Positions 30,990 to 60,308 of a DNA stretch of 64,000 bases are shown here, piece after piece (position 1 is the first letter of the stretch; every line of letters starts with the position of its first letter). This DNA is from Pleurocapsa sp. PCC 7327 (GTDB taxonomy: Bacteria; Cyanobacteriota; Cyanobacteriia; Cyanobacteriales; Microcystaceae), in the NCBI RefSeq assembly GCF_000317025.1, contig NC_019689.1:310001-374000 (forward strand), written 5' to 3'. The position numbers were made by a program, and so were the translations under genes. The notes below the pieces were generated by a model. It saw nothing but the letters and a program-made list of their open reading frames with translations. It was not told the DNA's origin and did not search any database.

Positions 30990-31008
30990 AGCTATAGAGA
31001 AACAAAAG

Positions 31009-31450
31009 GAGAAAGTAAGACGTAAGCCGGATTCTGTTCGTACAATCAATAGCTTAGCTTACAGCGATCGGCTAACTGTTGCACGGGCGGTTATCTATCT
31101 GGGATGTCTGTTACCAGACACCTCAAGCGGTTCTCTCGCAGCGGGACTGGTAAAAGACCAACCGTAGTCCCTTCGACCTTGCTCCCAACCGGGGTTTACC
31201 GAGCCAGCACCTCTCGATGCTGCTGGTGCGCTCTTACCGCACCTTTGCACCCTTACCAATTTTGTCCTTTGTCCTTTGTAAAAAACAAATGACAAATGAC
31301 AAATGACTAATTGGCGGTATGTTTCTGTGGCACTATCCTCGCGCTTGCGCACACTGGGCGTTACCCAGCAAGTTTGGTCTTTCGGGAGTCCGGACTTTCC
31401 TCAGATTGGCAAATTTTGCCAATCCGCAACCACCTCGCTTACTCTCTCCT
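31009..31450 (-). ncRNA. rnpB: RNase P RNA (bacterial type A)
   Basis: Catalytic RNA of RNase P, which trims tRNA 5' ends. On the minus strand the RNA begins around 31450 with AGGAGAGAGTAAGCGAGG, then shows the CR-I element GAGGAAAGTCCGGACTCC, a GCGAGGATAGTGCCACAGAAA segment, the CR-IV-like GGTAAACCCCGGTTGGGAGC stretch, and ends near the conserved CAGAATCCGGCTTACGTC. These are standard landmarks, so identity is firm; exact ends are estimates. The RNA carries an extra hairpin of heptad repeats at 31256-31314 in the P12 region. Heptad-repeat insertions in rnpB are known from heterocyst-forming cyanobacteria. Confidence 0.95.
31256..31314. repeat. Heptad-repeat hairpin inserted in rnpB
   Basis: CCAATT / AATTGG clamp a 59-nt segment made of TTTGTCC units on one arm and CAAATGA units on the other, joined by an A6-rich loop. 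In the RNA, GUCAUUUGU pairs with ACAAAGGAC with one A-G mismatch per 7-nt unit, giving a long extended hairpin. The same element in inverse orientation is seen inside the mannosidase gene at 52544. Confidence 0.88.
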
Positions 31451-32604: not shown

Positions 32605-32614
32605 TTAGTAATTC

Positions 32615-32664
32615 GCAATTATCAGTTCGCAATTAGTCAGCAGTTCTATGTGTGGTGAGTTTTT
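32615..32664. repeat. 50-nt dispersed repeat, copy 1
   Basis: Begins GCAATTATCAGTTCGCAATT and ends GAGTTTTT. It matches 54991-55040 in the same orientation with three mismatches. It abuts the truncation point of the MFS gene. Confidence 0.88.
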
Positions 32665-32761
32665 GTACTTCTGTGAATTTTAAGAAACATGCAGATAAAA
32701 AATAGCCTCAAAAGTGAGTATAATAGGAGGCTAAATCTTTTGATTTTTTTTAATCTTTATT

Positions 32762-43148: not shown

Positions 43149-43214
43149 TTAGTCATTAGTCATTAATTATTGGTCATTCGTCCTTAGTCAAAGGATAAAT
43201 GACAAACAACAAAG
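43149..43214. repeat. Heptad-repeat hairpin between the two ccmK genes
   Basis: Left arm AGTCATTAGTCATTAATTATTGGTC and right arm TAGTCAAAGGATAAATGACAAACAAC are partly complementary 7-nt-periodic sequences of the same family as the rnpB and mannosidase insertions. It fills nearly the whole spacer between the two shell genes. Confidence 0.75.
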
Positions 43215-43232
43215 ATTCTGGAGTAGAGATTT

Positions 43233-44059: not shown

Positions 44060-46057
44060 ATGGTAGTCCGCACTAAGGCGGCTCCCCCGACTCCTTGGTC
44101 GAAAAGTTTAGCTGAACCGCAAATAGATGAAAGCGCCTACGTACATTCCTTCTCGAATTTGATCGGGGATGTCAAGGTCAATGCCAACGTGTTAATCGCT
44201 CCCGGAACGTCCATTCGCGCCGATGAAGGAACGCCATTTTATATCGGCGAAGGCACAAATATTCAAGATGGTGTCGTCATTCACGGTTTAGAAAAAGGAC
44301 GGGTTGTCGGGGATGATGGCAGAGAGTATTCGGTCTGGATTGGCAAACAGGCATGTATTACTCACATGGCATTGATTCACGGACCAGCTTACGTCGGCGA
44401 TCGCTGTTTTATCGGCTTTCGCTCGACGGTGTTTAATGCCAGAGTAGGCGAAGGCTGTATCGTTATGATGCACGCCTTGATTCAAGATGTGGAAATTCCG
44501 CCAGGAAAATACGTTCCATCGGGGGCGACGATTGTCAACCAGCAACAGGCAGATCGACTGCCGGACGTGCAGGAGAGCGATCGCGCTTTTGTCTATCACG
44601 TGGTGGAAGTTAACGACGCCCTGCGAGAAGGGTATCAATGTGCGGAAAGTGCTGCTTGTATTGCTCCCATTCGGCAACAGCTAAAGCGATCTGAACAAGA
44701 CACTAATGAAACTAACTATATAAATTCAATGGAGAGTATGGGTTTAAGTTCGGATATCAGAGCACAGGTACGTTCCTTGTTGTCTCAAGGCTATACCATC
44801 GGTGCGGAACACGCAGACAAGCGCCGCTTCAAGACTAGCTCTTGGCTCACCTGCGGCACGATTTCAGGTAAGCGCGAAGACCAAGTTATGCAAGAGTTGA
44901 ATGCTTACCTAAACGAGTATGAAGACGAGTACGTGCGCTTGATCGGTATCGATCCCAAAGCCAAGCGGCGCGTATTAGAGATGATTATTCAACGCCCTGG
45001 AGATGCGCCCGCTCCCGTTGCTAGCGCTAAAACAACCAGTTACAAGGCGGCAACTAACGGAACGGCCGTCAGATCGGGGGACGGCAACGGAAGTATCAGC
45101 GGCGATATAGCGTCTCACGTGCGATCGCTACTTAACCAAGGCTACAAAATCGGCACTGAATTTGCCGACCAACGTCGTTTCAAGACTGGCTCTTGGCTGA
45201 CGGGTTCTACCATCGATGCCAGACAGGAATCGGAGGCTATCCGTGCCTTACAAGCAACGATGAGCGAGCATGAAGGAGAATACGTGCGTCTGGTAGGAAT
45301 CGACCCCAATGCCAAACGGCGCGTTTTAGAATTAATTATTCAAAGACCCGGCGAAACAGCAAGCATTAGCTCAAATGGCTCGTCAGTCAGGGGAGCTAGC
45401 AACGGCACTAAAGCTGGTGTTGCCACCAGTAACGGCGGCTTGAGTGCCGAAGCAATTGCCCAAATTCGCTCCCTTTTGATGCAAGGCTATAAAATCGGCA
45501 CCGAACACGCCGATAAACGCCGCTTCAGAACAAGTTCTTGGCAGAGTTGCGCTCCCATCGAGAGCAATCGCGAATCTGAGGTCATTGCTGCTCTGGAAGC
45601 TTGTCTGAGCGAACACCAAGGCGAATACGTCCGCTTGCTGGGCATCGATCCAAAGGCAAAACGGCGCGTACTGGAAACTATCATTCAACGCCCAGGAGAT
45701 AGCGCTCAAAACGGTTACAACTCTACAACAGCAGCCTCAACTTCTAGCGACTCCAGCTACAGCACATCAAATAGTGCGAATGTAAAAGTTAGCAGTAGCT
45801 TAGATGCCGAAACCATCTCCCAAGTGCGCTCCCTTTTGATGCAAGGCTATAAAATCGGCACCGAACACGCCGATAAACGCCGCTTCAGAACAAGTTCTTG
45901 GCAGAGTTGCGCTCCCATCGAGAGCAATCGCGAATCTGAGGTCGTTGCTGCTCTGGAAGCTTGCCTGAGCGAACACCAAGGCGAATACGTCCGCTTAATT
46001 GGCATCGACCCCAAAGCTAAGCGGCGTGTACTGGAAACCGTTATTCAACGCCCATAA
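44060..46057 (+). CDS. ccmM: Carboxysome core protein CcmM: gamma-carbonic anhydrase with four Rubisco-small-subunit-like domains
   Basis: Scaffold of 665 residues that condenses Rubisco and links it to the shell. The N-terminal gamma-carbonic-anhydrase domain (about 1-210) keeps the metal-site histidines in [14 protein letters not shown] and [11 protein letters not shown]. Cys194 and Cys200 ([10 protein letters not shown]) match the disulphide pair needed for activity of the Thermosynechococcus enzyme. Four SSU-like modules follow, at about 228-312, 343-428, 459-545 and 579-665, each with the YxIGxExADxRRFxTxSW and EYVRLxGIDPxAKRRVLExxIQRP pattern, joined by Ser/Gly/Asn/Ala-rich linkers. Repeats 3 and 4 share a 117-nt identical DNA block. 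An internal start giving a short, SSU-only form (M35-like) is known in this family; candidate ATGs lie just before module 1 (MESMGLSSD). Confidence 0.97.
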
Positions 46058-51126: not shown

Positions 51127-54100
51127 TTGTCTGACTCTATCTTAGTAACAATCGCTCAAACGCAAGAAAAGCTGCGCCAACTAACACAGATTGACGTACA
51201 GACTAGCTGGCGTTATGCTAGCGAAGATTTATCGGTTGAGGCGATCGATCCCTCCAATTGGCAACTCGCTCAGCCTAACGAAAAAGGATACCTCTGCTGG
51301 TCGTCGGGTCGTCAAGTACAATGGTTAGTGCAGCAATTTATTATTCCCCAAGACCTACAAGGCTATCCGCTAGAAGGACTGGTATTGCGACTAGTTTTGA
51401 CTTGGTGGGCAGAACAAGCGCAAATTTTCATTAACGGCAAATTAGTACAAGAAGGCGATTTATTCGATTCCTCTGTACGACTTCTCCTTACCCCTTCAGC
51501 CAAACCCGGAGAAAAAATCACTGTTGCTTTGCGCTTAGTCAGTCCCGGACACGATATTGGGGCATTAATGCGATCGCAATTAATCTATGAAAAAAACCAA
51601 AATCCCATCGAACCCGGTTTTGTTGCCGACGAATTGACGGTACTGCATAAATATTTAGAAACATTTGAACCTGAAAAATTAAACGCTCTTGCAACAGCCA
51701 TACAACAGATTGACTGGAATGTTGTCTGTGATGCAGAAAAATTCGATCGCTGTTTGTCAACTCTGCGTCAAACCCTTCAACCCCTTGCCGCATCCATAAA
51801 AAAACGTTGCTTCCATCTACTCGGTCACGCCCATCTTGACATGGCTTGGCTGTGGACGACTAGCGAAACCTGGGAAGTTGCCCAACGCACCTTTGAATCG
51901 GTTCTCAATTTACAACAAGATTTTCCCGAACTCACGTTTTGCCACACTAGCCCCGCTCTTTATGCCTGGATAGAAAAACATCGTCCAGACCTCTTTAAAG
52001 CGATTCAAGAGGCTGCTAAAGCTAAATCCTGGGAAGTTTTAGGAGGGATGTGGGTCGAACCGGAAGTCACCATAACCTCTGGAGAATCTATCGTTCGCCA
52101 ACTTCTGTACGGTCAACGCTACATCAGAGAAAAATTTGGGGCAATTACTCAAGTCGCATGGTTGCCAGATAGTTTTGGTTTTTCTTGGCAACTCCCACAA
52201 ATCTTTAAGCAAAGCGGGATTGAATATTTTGTTACTGGAAAATTGCACTGGAATGATACGACTAAGTTTCCCCATGGCGTTTTTTGGTGGCAATCTCCCG
52301 ACGGAACTCAGTTATTAACGCTGATGTCTCCTCCCAACGTGATGGGAGTGATGGATACCAATCCGATTGCGATGGCGAACTATGCCATTGATTGGGAACG
52401 TCAAACAGGATTAAAAGATACTTTTTGGCTTCCTGGCGTAGGCGATCGCGGCGGAGGTCCAAGTCGAGATATGTTAGAAGTGCAGCGGCGCTGGCGGCAA
52501 TCTCCTTTTTTCCCTCAGATAAAGTTTGCGAAAGCAGTTGAGTATTTGTCATTGGTTATTGGTCATTTGTCATTTAAAAAACAATCAATGACAAAGGACA
52601 AAGGACAAAGGACAATCCCCATTTGGAACGACGAACTATATCTAGAATTCCATCGAGGTTGTTATACGACTCATGCGGATCAAAAATCCTACAATCGTCG
52701 TTGTGAGGGATTGTTATATCAAGCAGAACTTTGGGCTTCTTTAGCAACAATTATTCTGGGTCAAGCTTATTCCAAAACCGAACTAGAAGACGCTTGGAAA
52801 AAAGTACTTTTTAATCAATTTCACGATATTCTACCCGGAACGTCTATTCCAGAAGTATTTGTCGAAGCGAATGAAACTTGGCAAGAAGTAAAAAGAGTCG
52901 GGCAGAAAATATTAGATGGATCATTGAGTGCGATCGCCTCCCAGATTACCTTACCTCCACCGCCTCACCCAAACGCTCGACCTATTATCATCTTTAACTC
53001 TCTCAATTGGCAACGATCTGAAGTTGTTGTTTGTTCCATTCCTTCAGGTAACTGGGAAATCTACGATTTAGCAGGACAAAAACTTCTATCCCAGTTATCG
53101 GCAGACGGTCAACTTCTCTTTCTAGCCAAAAATATTCCCTCAGTTGGTTATCGTCTCTTCTGGCTATGTCCGTGCCAACAACCAACCACCGCTCGCCAAC
53201 CCCTAACCTCACATCAAAACTTTATTTTAGAAAACGAGAAGCTTAGAGTAACTATCAACCCCGAAACCGGAGACTTAAATAGCATCTTTGATAAAATCGC
53301 TCGACGGGAAATTCTCAAAGGAGCAGGAAATCAACTACAAGCGTTTGAAGACAAAGGTCAATACTGGGATGCTTGGAATATCGACCCCAACTATGCTCAA
53401 CATCCCTTACCGCCCGCACGATTAAAATCTATTGAGTATTTGGAATGCGGCCCCTTGCAGTGGCGAATACGGGTTATCAAACAACTCAATAACTCAGAAT
53501 TTTGTCAGGATTATGTTCTTCATGCCAACTCGCCTATTCTAAAAATCGCCACAATGGTAAACTGGCAAGAAACCCACGTCCTGGTAAAAGCGGCTTTTCC
53601 TTTAAACGTAGAAAGTGACTTCGCAACCTATGAAATTCCCTGTGGGGCTATCAAACGTCCCACCAAGCCTCAAACCCCAGCCGAAAAAGCCAAATGGGAA
53701 GTTTATGCCCTGCGCTGGGCAGATTTAGGCGATCGCGAATACGGTGTTAGTCTTCTCAACGATTGTAAATACGGCTACGATAGCCAACCGGTTCAGTTAC
53801 GCCTCACCTTACTTCGCAGTCCTCAATGGCCCGATCCTAACGCAGATAAAGGCACTCATCAATTTACCTACGCTATCTATCCTCACCAGGGAAGTTGGCA
53901 AGCAGCAAAGACAGTTCGTTACGGATATGAGTTGAATGTTCCGCTAACAGTTCTCTCATGCGAACTAGATAACAGGGAAAAGACTCATTCTTTGCCTGCT
54001 ACGAGTCAGTTATTAGATTTGGATTCAGAAAATCTGATTTTAATGGCATTCAAACAGTCTGAAGACGATCCAAATGCTTGGATTTTACGCTGTTACGAAT

Positions 54101-54252
54101 GCCATGGAAAAACGGTGAAATATTCCCTCAAGGGCGATCTGCAATGGGCAAGCGAGACTCCCGTCGATTTATTAGAACAGCCATTAAAGAAAATATCTGA
54201 GATTAATCCTTGGAAGATTGTCAGCTTCAAGCTAAGGCCATCTAAAACCTAA
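51127..54252 (+). CDS. Alpha-mannosidase (GH38)
   Basis: A 1041-residue family-38 glycoside hydrolase. The N-terminal region (about 1-200) is the accessory beta domain. The catalytic domain shows GHAHLDMAWLWT with metal ligands and WLPDSFGFSWQLPQ with the nucleophile Asp; ELYLEFHRGCYTTHADQK follows. A middle helical domain and a long C-terminal beta domain (about 640-1041) complete the fold. It trims alpha-mannosides, probably in the cytosol, since no signal peptide is present. The start is TTG at 51127. Residues about 472-496 are encoded by a heptad-repeat element in frame (see 52544). Gene and stop are otherwise intact. Confidence 0.92.
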   Translation: MSDSILVTIAQTQEKLRQLTQIDVQTSWRYASEDLSVEAIDPSNWQLAQPNEKGYLCWSSGRQVQWLVQQFIIPQDLQGYPLEGLVLRLVLTWWAEQAQIFINGKLVQEGDLFDSSVRLLLTPSAKPGEKITVALRLVSPGHDIGALMRSQLIYEKNQNPIEPGFVADELTVLHKYLETFEPEKLNALATAIQQIDWNVVCDAEKFDRCLSTLRQTLQPLAASIKKRCFHLLGHAHLDMAWLWTTSETWEVAQRTFESVLNLQQDFPELTFCHTSPALYAWIEKHRPDLFKAIQEAAKAKSWEVLGGMWVEPEVTITSGESIVRQLLYGQRYIREKFGAITQVAWLPDSFGFSWQLPQIFKQSGIEYFVTGKLHWNDTTKFPHGVFWWQSPDGTQLLTLMSPPNVMGVMDTNPIAMANYAIDWERQTGLKDTFWLPGVGDRGGGPSRDMLEVQRRWRQSPFFPQIKFAKAVEYLSLVIGHLSFKKQSMTKDKGQRTIPIWNDELYLEFHRGCYTTHADQKSYNRRCEGLLYQAELWASLATIILGQAYSKTELEDAWKKVLFNQFHDILPGTSIPEVFVEANETWQEVKRVGQKILDGSLSAIASQITLPPPPHPNARPIIIFNSLNWQRSEVVVCSIPSGNWEIYDLAGQKLLSQLSADGQLLFLAKNIPSVGYRLFWLCPCQQPTTARQPLTSHQNFILENEKLRVTINPETGDLNSIFDKIARREILKGAGNQLQAFEDKGQYWDAWNIDPNYAQHPLPPARLKSIEYLECGPLQWRIRVIKQLNNSEFCQDYVLHANSPILKIATMVNWQETHVLVKAAFPLNVESDFATYEIPCGAIKRPTKPQTPAEKAKWEVYALRWADLGDREYGVSLLNDCKYGYDSQPVQLRLTLLRSPQWPDPNADKGTHQFTYAIYPHQGSWQAAKTVRYGYELNVPLTVLSCELDNREKTHSLPATSQLLDLDSENLILMAFKQSEDDPNAWILRCYECHGKTVKYSLKGDLQWASETPVDLLEQPLKKISEINPWKIVSFKLRPSKT
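52544..52616. repeat. In-frame heptad-repeat hairpin inside the mannosidase gene
   Basis: Left arm TTTGTCATTGGTTATTGGTC plus ATTTGTCATTT, A6 loop, right arm ATGACAAAGGACAAAGGACAAAGGACAA. It reads in frame as LSLVIGHLSFKKQSMTKDKG plus QRT between the conserved KFAKAVEYL and PIWNDELYLEFHRG. The DNA is the inverse-orientation counterpart of the rnpB insertion at 31256. Confidence 0.88.
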
Positions 54253-54885: not shown

Positions 54886-55170
54886 ATCCCAAAAGTATAG
54901 AATGTCATGTTGAGCGGAGCGATCGCGAAGCGAAACATCTTCTACCAATTCGCCGATGCTCCTCCACTTCGTGGAAGTCCGCGTCGGTTGGCAATTATCA
55001 GTTCGCAATTAGTCAGCAGTTCTGTGTGCGGAGAGTTTTTGACAGTAACTGTACTTGAAGTCCCTTCTCTCCTTGTGGGAGAAGGGATGAGGGGATAAAG
55101 ATTTATCAGTCAACCAGGATTCTTCGTTACGTTCTCCTGCACTGGGAGTGACAAAATGGACTTTTGGGAT
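54886..55170. mobile_element. MITE-like segment with 11-bp terminal inverted repeats
   Basis: ATCCCAAAAGT at 54886-54896 is matched by its inverse complement ACTTTTGGGAT at 55160-55170; beyond these the ends keep partial inverted similarity (TGTCATG/GTGACA words). The 285-bp interior has no gene, but holds a HIP1 octamer, the AGCGAAACATCTTCTACC word common in interspersed repeats, and the 50-nt repeat shared with 32615-32664. No target-site duplication was confirmed. It fills most of the spacer between DUF177 and the O-methyltransferase. Confidence 0.5.
54991..55040. repeat. 50-nt dispersed repeat, copy 2
   Basis: Same as 32615-32664 with three mismatches (all near the 3' half). It lies inside the MITE-like segment. 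Confidence 0.88.
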
Positions 55171-60210: not shown

Positions 60211-60308
60211 GCAGTTAGTTGGTAGTTAGTGGTTGTTGGTTAGCGGATAATATTCTTCCCTAACGACTACCGACTAACTACTAACGACCTAATGACTAAC
60301 GACTAACC
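60211..60308. repeat. Heptad-repeat hairpin between atpB and atpE
   Basis: Left arm of GTTAGTTGGTAGTTAGTGGTTGTTGGTTAG, right arm of CTAACGACTACCGACTAACTACTAACGACCTAATGACTAACGACTAACC read with a 7-nt period. The arms are complementary. It occupies nearly the whole 111-nt intercistronic gap. Confidence 0.85.

Follow-up and report, generated by a model that had tools for sequence, protein, structure and literature searches.

The question raised by this locus is how a dispersed, hairpin-forming DNA repeat can come to be read as part of a conserved enzyme, and what fills the corresponding site in related genomes. The enzyme is a GH38 alpha-mannosidase of the cyanobacterium Pleurocapsa sp. PCC 7327, encoded within the window (i.e., the entire stretch of 64,000 nucleotides that was analysed, to whose numbering the coordinates below refer). 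The reading favoured here, to which a probability of roughly two in three is given, is that tolerant linkers receive dispersed repeats, by entry or by exchange, and keep only those that are stop-free and in frame. A copy of a dispersed, hairpin-forming heptad repeat resembling the STRR type fills the linker that separates the N-terminal domain of the mannosidase from its middle domain; on this reading it would have come either from other copies, through recombination or template switching, or by insertion, and would have passed a filter that retains only what keeps the frame, lies in a tolerant loop and contains no stops.

The hairpin and its host gene

The host gene (51127-54252, + strand) is an intact open reading frame of 1041 codons, the product of which matches PF01074 (289.5 bits), PF09261 (104.5), PF07748 (232.8) and PF17677 (51.6), all above the Pfam cut-offs; with its GH38 N-terminal, middle and C-terminal domains it is a member of the GH38 alpha-mannosidases. 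An AF2 model, based on an alignment of only 30 sequences, has a mean pLDDT of 86.3, and a structure search with this model retrieved solved GH38 enzymes, with Ams1 as the best match, a result that confirms the GH38 fold only. Comparison with the sister species, linker excluded, yields a dN of 0.023 and a dS of 0.121 (dN/dS of about 0.19) and shows the gene to be under purifying selection; a pseudogene reading was rejected on the basis of this ratio and of the open frame.

The hairpin occupies 68 nt on the + strand (52548-52615; contig positions 362548-362615). As read from the sequence, it consists of a left arm of GTCATTN-type heptads (52548-52575) directly adjoining an A-rich loop with a run of six A (52576-52586), followed by a right arm composed mostly of GGACAAA heptads (52587-52615), which contains no stops in the gene's frame. 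TRF finds a period of 7 at 52544-52575 and again at 52590-52615--that is, the tandem 7-nt units typical of STRR-type repeats--so that the heptad build proposed in the original prediction is seen on both arms. When folded as DNA, the hairpin is more stable than its shuffled counterparts (z = -3.08; 0 of 200 as good); when folded as RNA, its advantage is slight (z = -1.67; 11 of 200 shuffles do as well). RNAalifold found weak covariation (10 pairs, one of them with both sides changed), and therefore no conserved RNA structure is claimed. A known RNA family was rejected for the hairpin, as an Rfam search of the whole window at the gathering threshold returned RNase P only.

Translated in the mannosidase frame, the hairpin reads SLVIGHLSFKKQSMTKDKGQRTI, which corresponds to residues 475-497; the linker codons involved (52549-52617, + strand) vary between species, as judged from orthologues. 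A tryptic peptide deduced from the sequence, AVEYLSLVIGHLSFK, reaches into the insert. The earlier claim that a hairpin is read in frame within an intact alpha-mannosidase gene is thus upheld; two of its details are not. The insert had been placed between segments of the catalytic domain, but the PF01074 match extends to residue 478 and PF09261 begins at residue 507, and the insert sits in the linker between them. Nor is it a clean addition of about 24 residues: the linker has 23 residues here versus 8-13 in short orthologues (i.e., a net gain of about 10-15), and within it the ancestral linker residues are unrecognisable. In the AF2 model a predicted helix runs up to residue 486 and pLDDT falls below 50 at residues 485-494, so that the insert is predicted to extend a helix and then to become disordered; it would be translated as a passive spacer.

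Orthologue alignment, as originally proposed, found the insert residues in only two of the 92 loci with an extractable linker, both from the window's own genome; none of the distant orthologues carries them, nor does the 94%-identical sister. The reading of the insert as a conserved domain segment was rejected because orthologues differ there. The same protein has a second variable linker (CQQPTTARQPLTSHQN; 53173-53220, + strand), which looks repeat-like by eye only; near residue 691, 19 of 42 orthologues carry at least 5 extra residues, and some relatives as many as 84.

A dispersed family with copies in several genes

When the window's own genome (a single contig of 4,986,817 bases) was searched by blastn with a 201-nt query surrounding the insert, at least 36 matches were found besides the query itself (37 rows, with 40 of 136 first-look candidates scored), all of them between query positions 56 and 142, which is to say within the insert (69-136) and its edges. 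A covariance model (CM) built from 14 copies, which match by construction, returned 70 rows at E <= 0.01; merging these by strand gives at least 48 distinct loci, a lower bound because scoring covered 150 of 2540 first-look candidates. The mannosidase copy, itself part of the model, scores 81.5 bits. Seven of the 48 loci lie in long ORFs, one in rnpB and 40 elsewhere; hence there are many copies, mostly outside genes, as is typical of STRR-type repeats. (Nine ORFs of at least 100 aa contain a copy; the 101-aa one within rnpB was left out of the genic count, as was a 104-aa one, which was taken as spurious and whose copy is among the 40.) The mannosidase repeat is termed STRR-like here on the basis of its 7-nt units and this dispersal. 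STRR-type heptad hairpins, built of complementary heptads and placed in a tolerant loop, occur in rnpB, and Elhai et al. 2008 reportedly describe small dispersed repeats of Nostoc, which, going by the title, are mobile and very small.

Directionality is evident in most full copies, which have GTCATT-type heptads on the left, GACAAA-type heptads on the right and often an A-rich loop; their arms vary in length by heptads. Within the window, the CM also detects a copy outside any ORF of at least 100 aa (43152-43219, + strand) and one (31256-31314, - strand; used in building the model) inside the Rfam-identified RNase P RNA gene rnpB (31008-31445). The proposal that the rnpB and mannosidase inserts belong to one hairpin family is supported. 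The further proposal that one is the inverse of the other, including the A6 loop, is right about the loop, which does run the opposite way (A6 in the mannosidase but T6 in rnpB), and wrong about the arms, the order of which is the same in the sense direction (GTCAT.. on the left, GGACAAA.. on the right).

All seven copies in long ORFs are in the sense orientation and in frame, a count that is biased because gene-breaking copies would go unrecognised, only ORF-preserving ones being recognisable. In these coding copies TGAC and GGAC words number 3 and 14, versus 50 and 38 in the 40 other copies (Fisher p = 0.0035), a comparison that is less independent than it looks because some of the kinase hosts described below are paralogous. 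Such GGAC enrichment would follow from a purging of TGA-containing arms: a sense copy having GGACAAA instead of TGACAAA heptads in its right arm could be read through. In the 40 other copies, open frames make up only 17 of 120 in the sense direction and 10 of 120 in the antisense direction.

The genome search for further in-gene copies that had been suggested at the outset revealed in-frame family members in Mfd (TIGR00580, 899 bits), in ChlH (NF009140, 1930 bits) and in three hybrid histidine kinases, in each of which the HATPase match spans the copy; a weak copy (29.7 bits, E = 0.006) lies between two domains of a DhaM-HPr-EI fusion. The paralogues yielded a fourth hybrid histidine kinase that has heptad DNA in this HATPase loop, so that the heptads are present in 4 of 24 extractable loops (from 30 loci, of 60 rows, with three loop sequences listed twice). 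Two of the four kinases of this genome concerned (L251-L254), namely L251 and L252, are encoded by neighbouring genes with copies 2.6 kb apart, and may share one insertion through duplication.

For ChlH and Mfd, 39 genomes were searched and 30 loci each compared. The ChlH loop has 7-10 residues in 27 of the 30 loci, among them the two remaining members of the genus with 10; the other three loci have 16 (this genome), 19 (the sister) and 18. This genome and its sister differ by 9 nt in this loop, and ancestral residues are unrecognisable in its filled form. The Mfd loop has 7-12 residues in 20 loci, 18 in five, 20 in one and 26 in four. The 26-residue form has recognisably the same hairpin in all four genus members (here and in the sister it differs at 5 of 78 nt), and is therefore older than the sampled members of the genus; judging from these sequences, the ChlH hairpin seems to be younger. 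Another genus (g9), probably Microcystis, provides a clean pair at the Mfd site: 27 nt of other sequence are present in frame in L242 and absent from L249, with no target duplication evident in this pair, a difference that may reflect an insertion or a deletion. The 27 nt lie where the present genus has its hairpin, and L244-L247 are filled like L242, as seen for instance in STLRRSSGQTLISHQDAG versus STISHQDAG for the empty L249.

The mannosidase linker in related genomes

The insert differs even from its counterpart in the sister species (G001), the linker of which is identical to that of Hydrococcus rivularis NIES-593 (L014), the closest named record among the matches listed. Outside the linker, 2925 of 3054 nt are identical (95.8%) and 45 of 1018 residues differ; inside it, 31 of 69 nt and 19 of 23 residues differ. 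Given a four-fold site divergence of 9.2% (39 of 424), so many changes within the linker have a probability of 9e-15, and therefore the linker has been swapped or reworked, beyond what point mutation alone would produce. The sister's linker is a hairpin of another heptad class (the GTTAGT type), and hairpins resembling it, at 74-80% identity, are found in both genomes.

More widely, linkers could be extracted from 92 of 109 mannosidase loci and comprise 64 distinct sequences, 30 of them with 8-13 residues and 34 with 14-77. (The 17 loci left out, seven lacking an anchor and ten having a zero-length linker by the anchors, all come from records not titled cyanobacteria, as do five of the 30 short linkers.) The 34 long linkers fall into 27 blastn groups (E <= 1e-3), between which there is no detectable DNA similarity. 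These include AATTCAG and TTTGCGT heptads, 9-mers (GGGAGACAA), a Moorena repeat (GGCCTTTTGGCCAAGG) and GTAGGGGC palindromes, which in two linkers (L022 and G003) look by eye like GTAG REPs. A record titled Candidatus Gracilibacteria (L063) has the same linker as the cyanobacterium G002; it is probably a misbinned contig.

Six linkers were searched against their own genomes, of which four have strong matches elsewhere, one modest and one weak. With the query included, the rows number at least 152 for Moorena (where matches reach 88% identity over query positions 1-126), at least 104 for Nostoc linckia, at least 40 for the UBA11153 MAG and at least 37 for the present genome, compared with at least five short matches for G002 and three, two of them weak, for the sister. 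With different scattered repeats thus occupying the one gap in different relatives, gaps of this kind seem to be places at which repeat DNA is time and again converted into protein.

As a control for position, insertions were located throughout 42 orthologues: the linker is the commonest internal insertion site, with at least 5 inserted residues in 30 of the 42 and 744 of 2769 inserted residues overall; other linkers of the enzyme are variable as well, and two other sites have longer single insertions (84 and 96 versus 69 residues). When the long linkers were folded as DNA and compared with windows of the same gene, the linker of this genome had a z of -2.95, four of the 34 had a z below -2 and five more lay between -1.8 and -2. 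Since only four of 34 are clear hairpins, the site is not accounted for by one type of element, and a universal rule of hairpin insertion was rejected. Parsimony requires six changes between short and long linkers (58 rows, with L015 and one duplicate row left out), a count that is only a rough guide because it rests on a quick tree with an absurdly long L076 branch. The host site, as much as the repeat element, is the phenomenon.

Possible routes of entry and relation to known repeats

One alternative to the favoured reading, and an unlikely one, is that a non-autonomous mobile element of the MITE, REP or RPE kind entered the gene in a single transposition, with a transposase acting on the hairpin. 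This would accord with a directional hairpin family that has many two-armed copies among its 48 dispersed loci, and with a ChlH loop that is filled in two members of the genus and short in two. Against it, neither a target duplication nor fixed element ends are seen at the GH38 and ChlH sites, for which no clean empty/filled pair was found among the compared relatives (so that a duplication would be unrecognisable there); moreover, the arms vary in length by heptads, and ancestral residues can no longer be discerned in either filled linker.

Less likely still is local slippage, by which tandem heptads or 9-mers would have grown within the linker from short seeds, nothing being copied from elsewhere. 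In other species, several long linkers do consist of tandem arrays--five copies of AATTCAG in L057, and GGGAGACAA in L046 and L059--and some of these may be products of slippage, as might the 9-nt difference in ChlH. Direct-repeat slippage alone, however, does not give a two-armed hairpin with a loop, nor does it account for linkers with matching dispersed copies at other places in the same genome, as seen for the Moorena linker at 88%.

That the variable linker is adaptive, as a tunable spacer, for example, or a contingency locus altering enzyme behaviour, is improbable: the length range is large and lineage-specific in a gene under purifying selection, but 30 of the 64 distinct linkers stay at 8-13 residues, part of the insert is predicted to be disordered and the same repeat is found in unrelated proteins. 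Linkers in general vary fast; yet an ordinary unconstrained linker that resembles a repeat by chance or low complexity is scarcely credible and is contradicted because the genome search found repeat copies, the matches being confined to the insert and its edges, and because 31 of 69 nt have changed against a four-fold rate of 9.2%.

On the reading preferred here, the repeated occupation of the mannosidase linker would reflect mainly tolerance and reseeding rather than a dedicated choice of target site. A broader proposal, made tentatively and at somewhat less than even odds, is that conserved cyanobacterial proteins offer general landing pads in their interdomain linkers and loops; unrelated dispersed repeats would replace one another there through exchange, and the length and sequence of these linkers would largely depend on which family is amplifying in the lineage.

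The best-known parallel, to which the original prediction pointed, is the Rickettsia palindromic elements (RPEs), which, according to PMC2229807, are dispersed, Rickettsia-specific palindromes of 105-146 bp that lie in frame within conserved protein-coding genes (19 reading frames) and also occur in RNA genes. The parallel stands as regards behaviour, since here too a single dispersed family occupies several conserved protein genes in frame and is present in an RNA gene (rnpB). The differences are that this is a cyanobacterial hairpin built of heptads and variable in length (46-107 nt in the CM matches over the 48 loci and 68 nt in the mannosidase, unlike the 105-146 bp of RPEs), and that its site is a hypervariable linker that holds other repeats in other lineages. 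Thus the family appears to work like RPEs, by analogy of behaviour, without being identified as one.

In-gene palindromes outside Rickettsia include the GTAG/CGTC REPs, many in DNA repair genes, with REP families in cyanobacterial genomes; the portion of PMC3733652 available names no cyanobacterial in-gene case. Like these, the present family consists of short palindromes inside genes, one of which, Mfd, is a DNA repair gene; unlike them, the mannosidase copy, on which alone this was judged, is built of heptads, starting with GTCATTG and finishing with GGACAA rather than carrying GTAG/CGTC tags. In the P6b loop of the Nostoc trnL intron, according to PMC4476775, complementary heptads form a hairpin in which one heptad class is repeatedly replaced by another, much as between this species and its sister; unlike the rnpB and trnL hairpins, which lie in RNA genes, that of the mannosidase lies inside a reading frame.

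The suggestion that in-frame coding by STRR-type elements is little described needs qualification accordingly: in-frame palindromic repeats are already known from Rickettsia and the GTAG/CGTC REPs, and, among the open-literature matches listed, no title or abstract opening concerns either in-frame STRR-type heptads or recurrent repeat exchange at one protein linker, an absence that speaks only weakly for novelty. What appears to be little described is the recurrent exchange at a single linker. It provides material for comparison, since repeat DNA has turned into protein over and over at homologous sites and close relatives show both short and filled forms; it makes the spread of small cyanobacterial repeats, and a possible exchange of hairpins by gene conversion, directly testable. 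It also calls for caution with the fast-evolving linkers of cyanobacterial proteins, since these may consist of repeat DNA and not of functional sequence.

Several other repeats occur in the window. A 54-nt repeat (TTCGCAATTATCAGTTCGCAATTAGTCAG...) is present at 32612-32665 and 54988-55041 in copies that are 93% identical, and probably represents another dispersed family; four direct copies of a 257-nt sequence, spaced about 350 nt apart and 65-100% identical to the reference copy, lie at 44742-46054; and a CTAACGA heptad array of 6.7 copies lies at 60260-60307.
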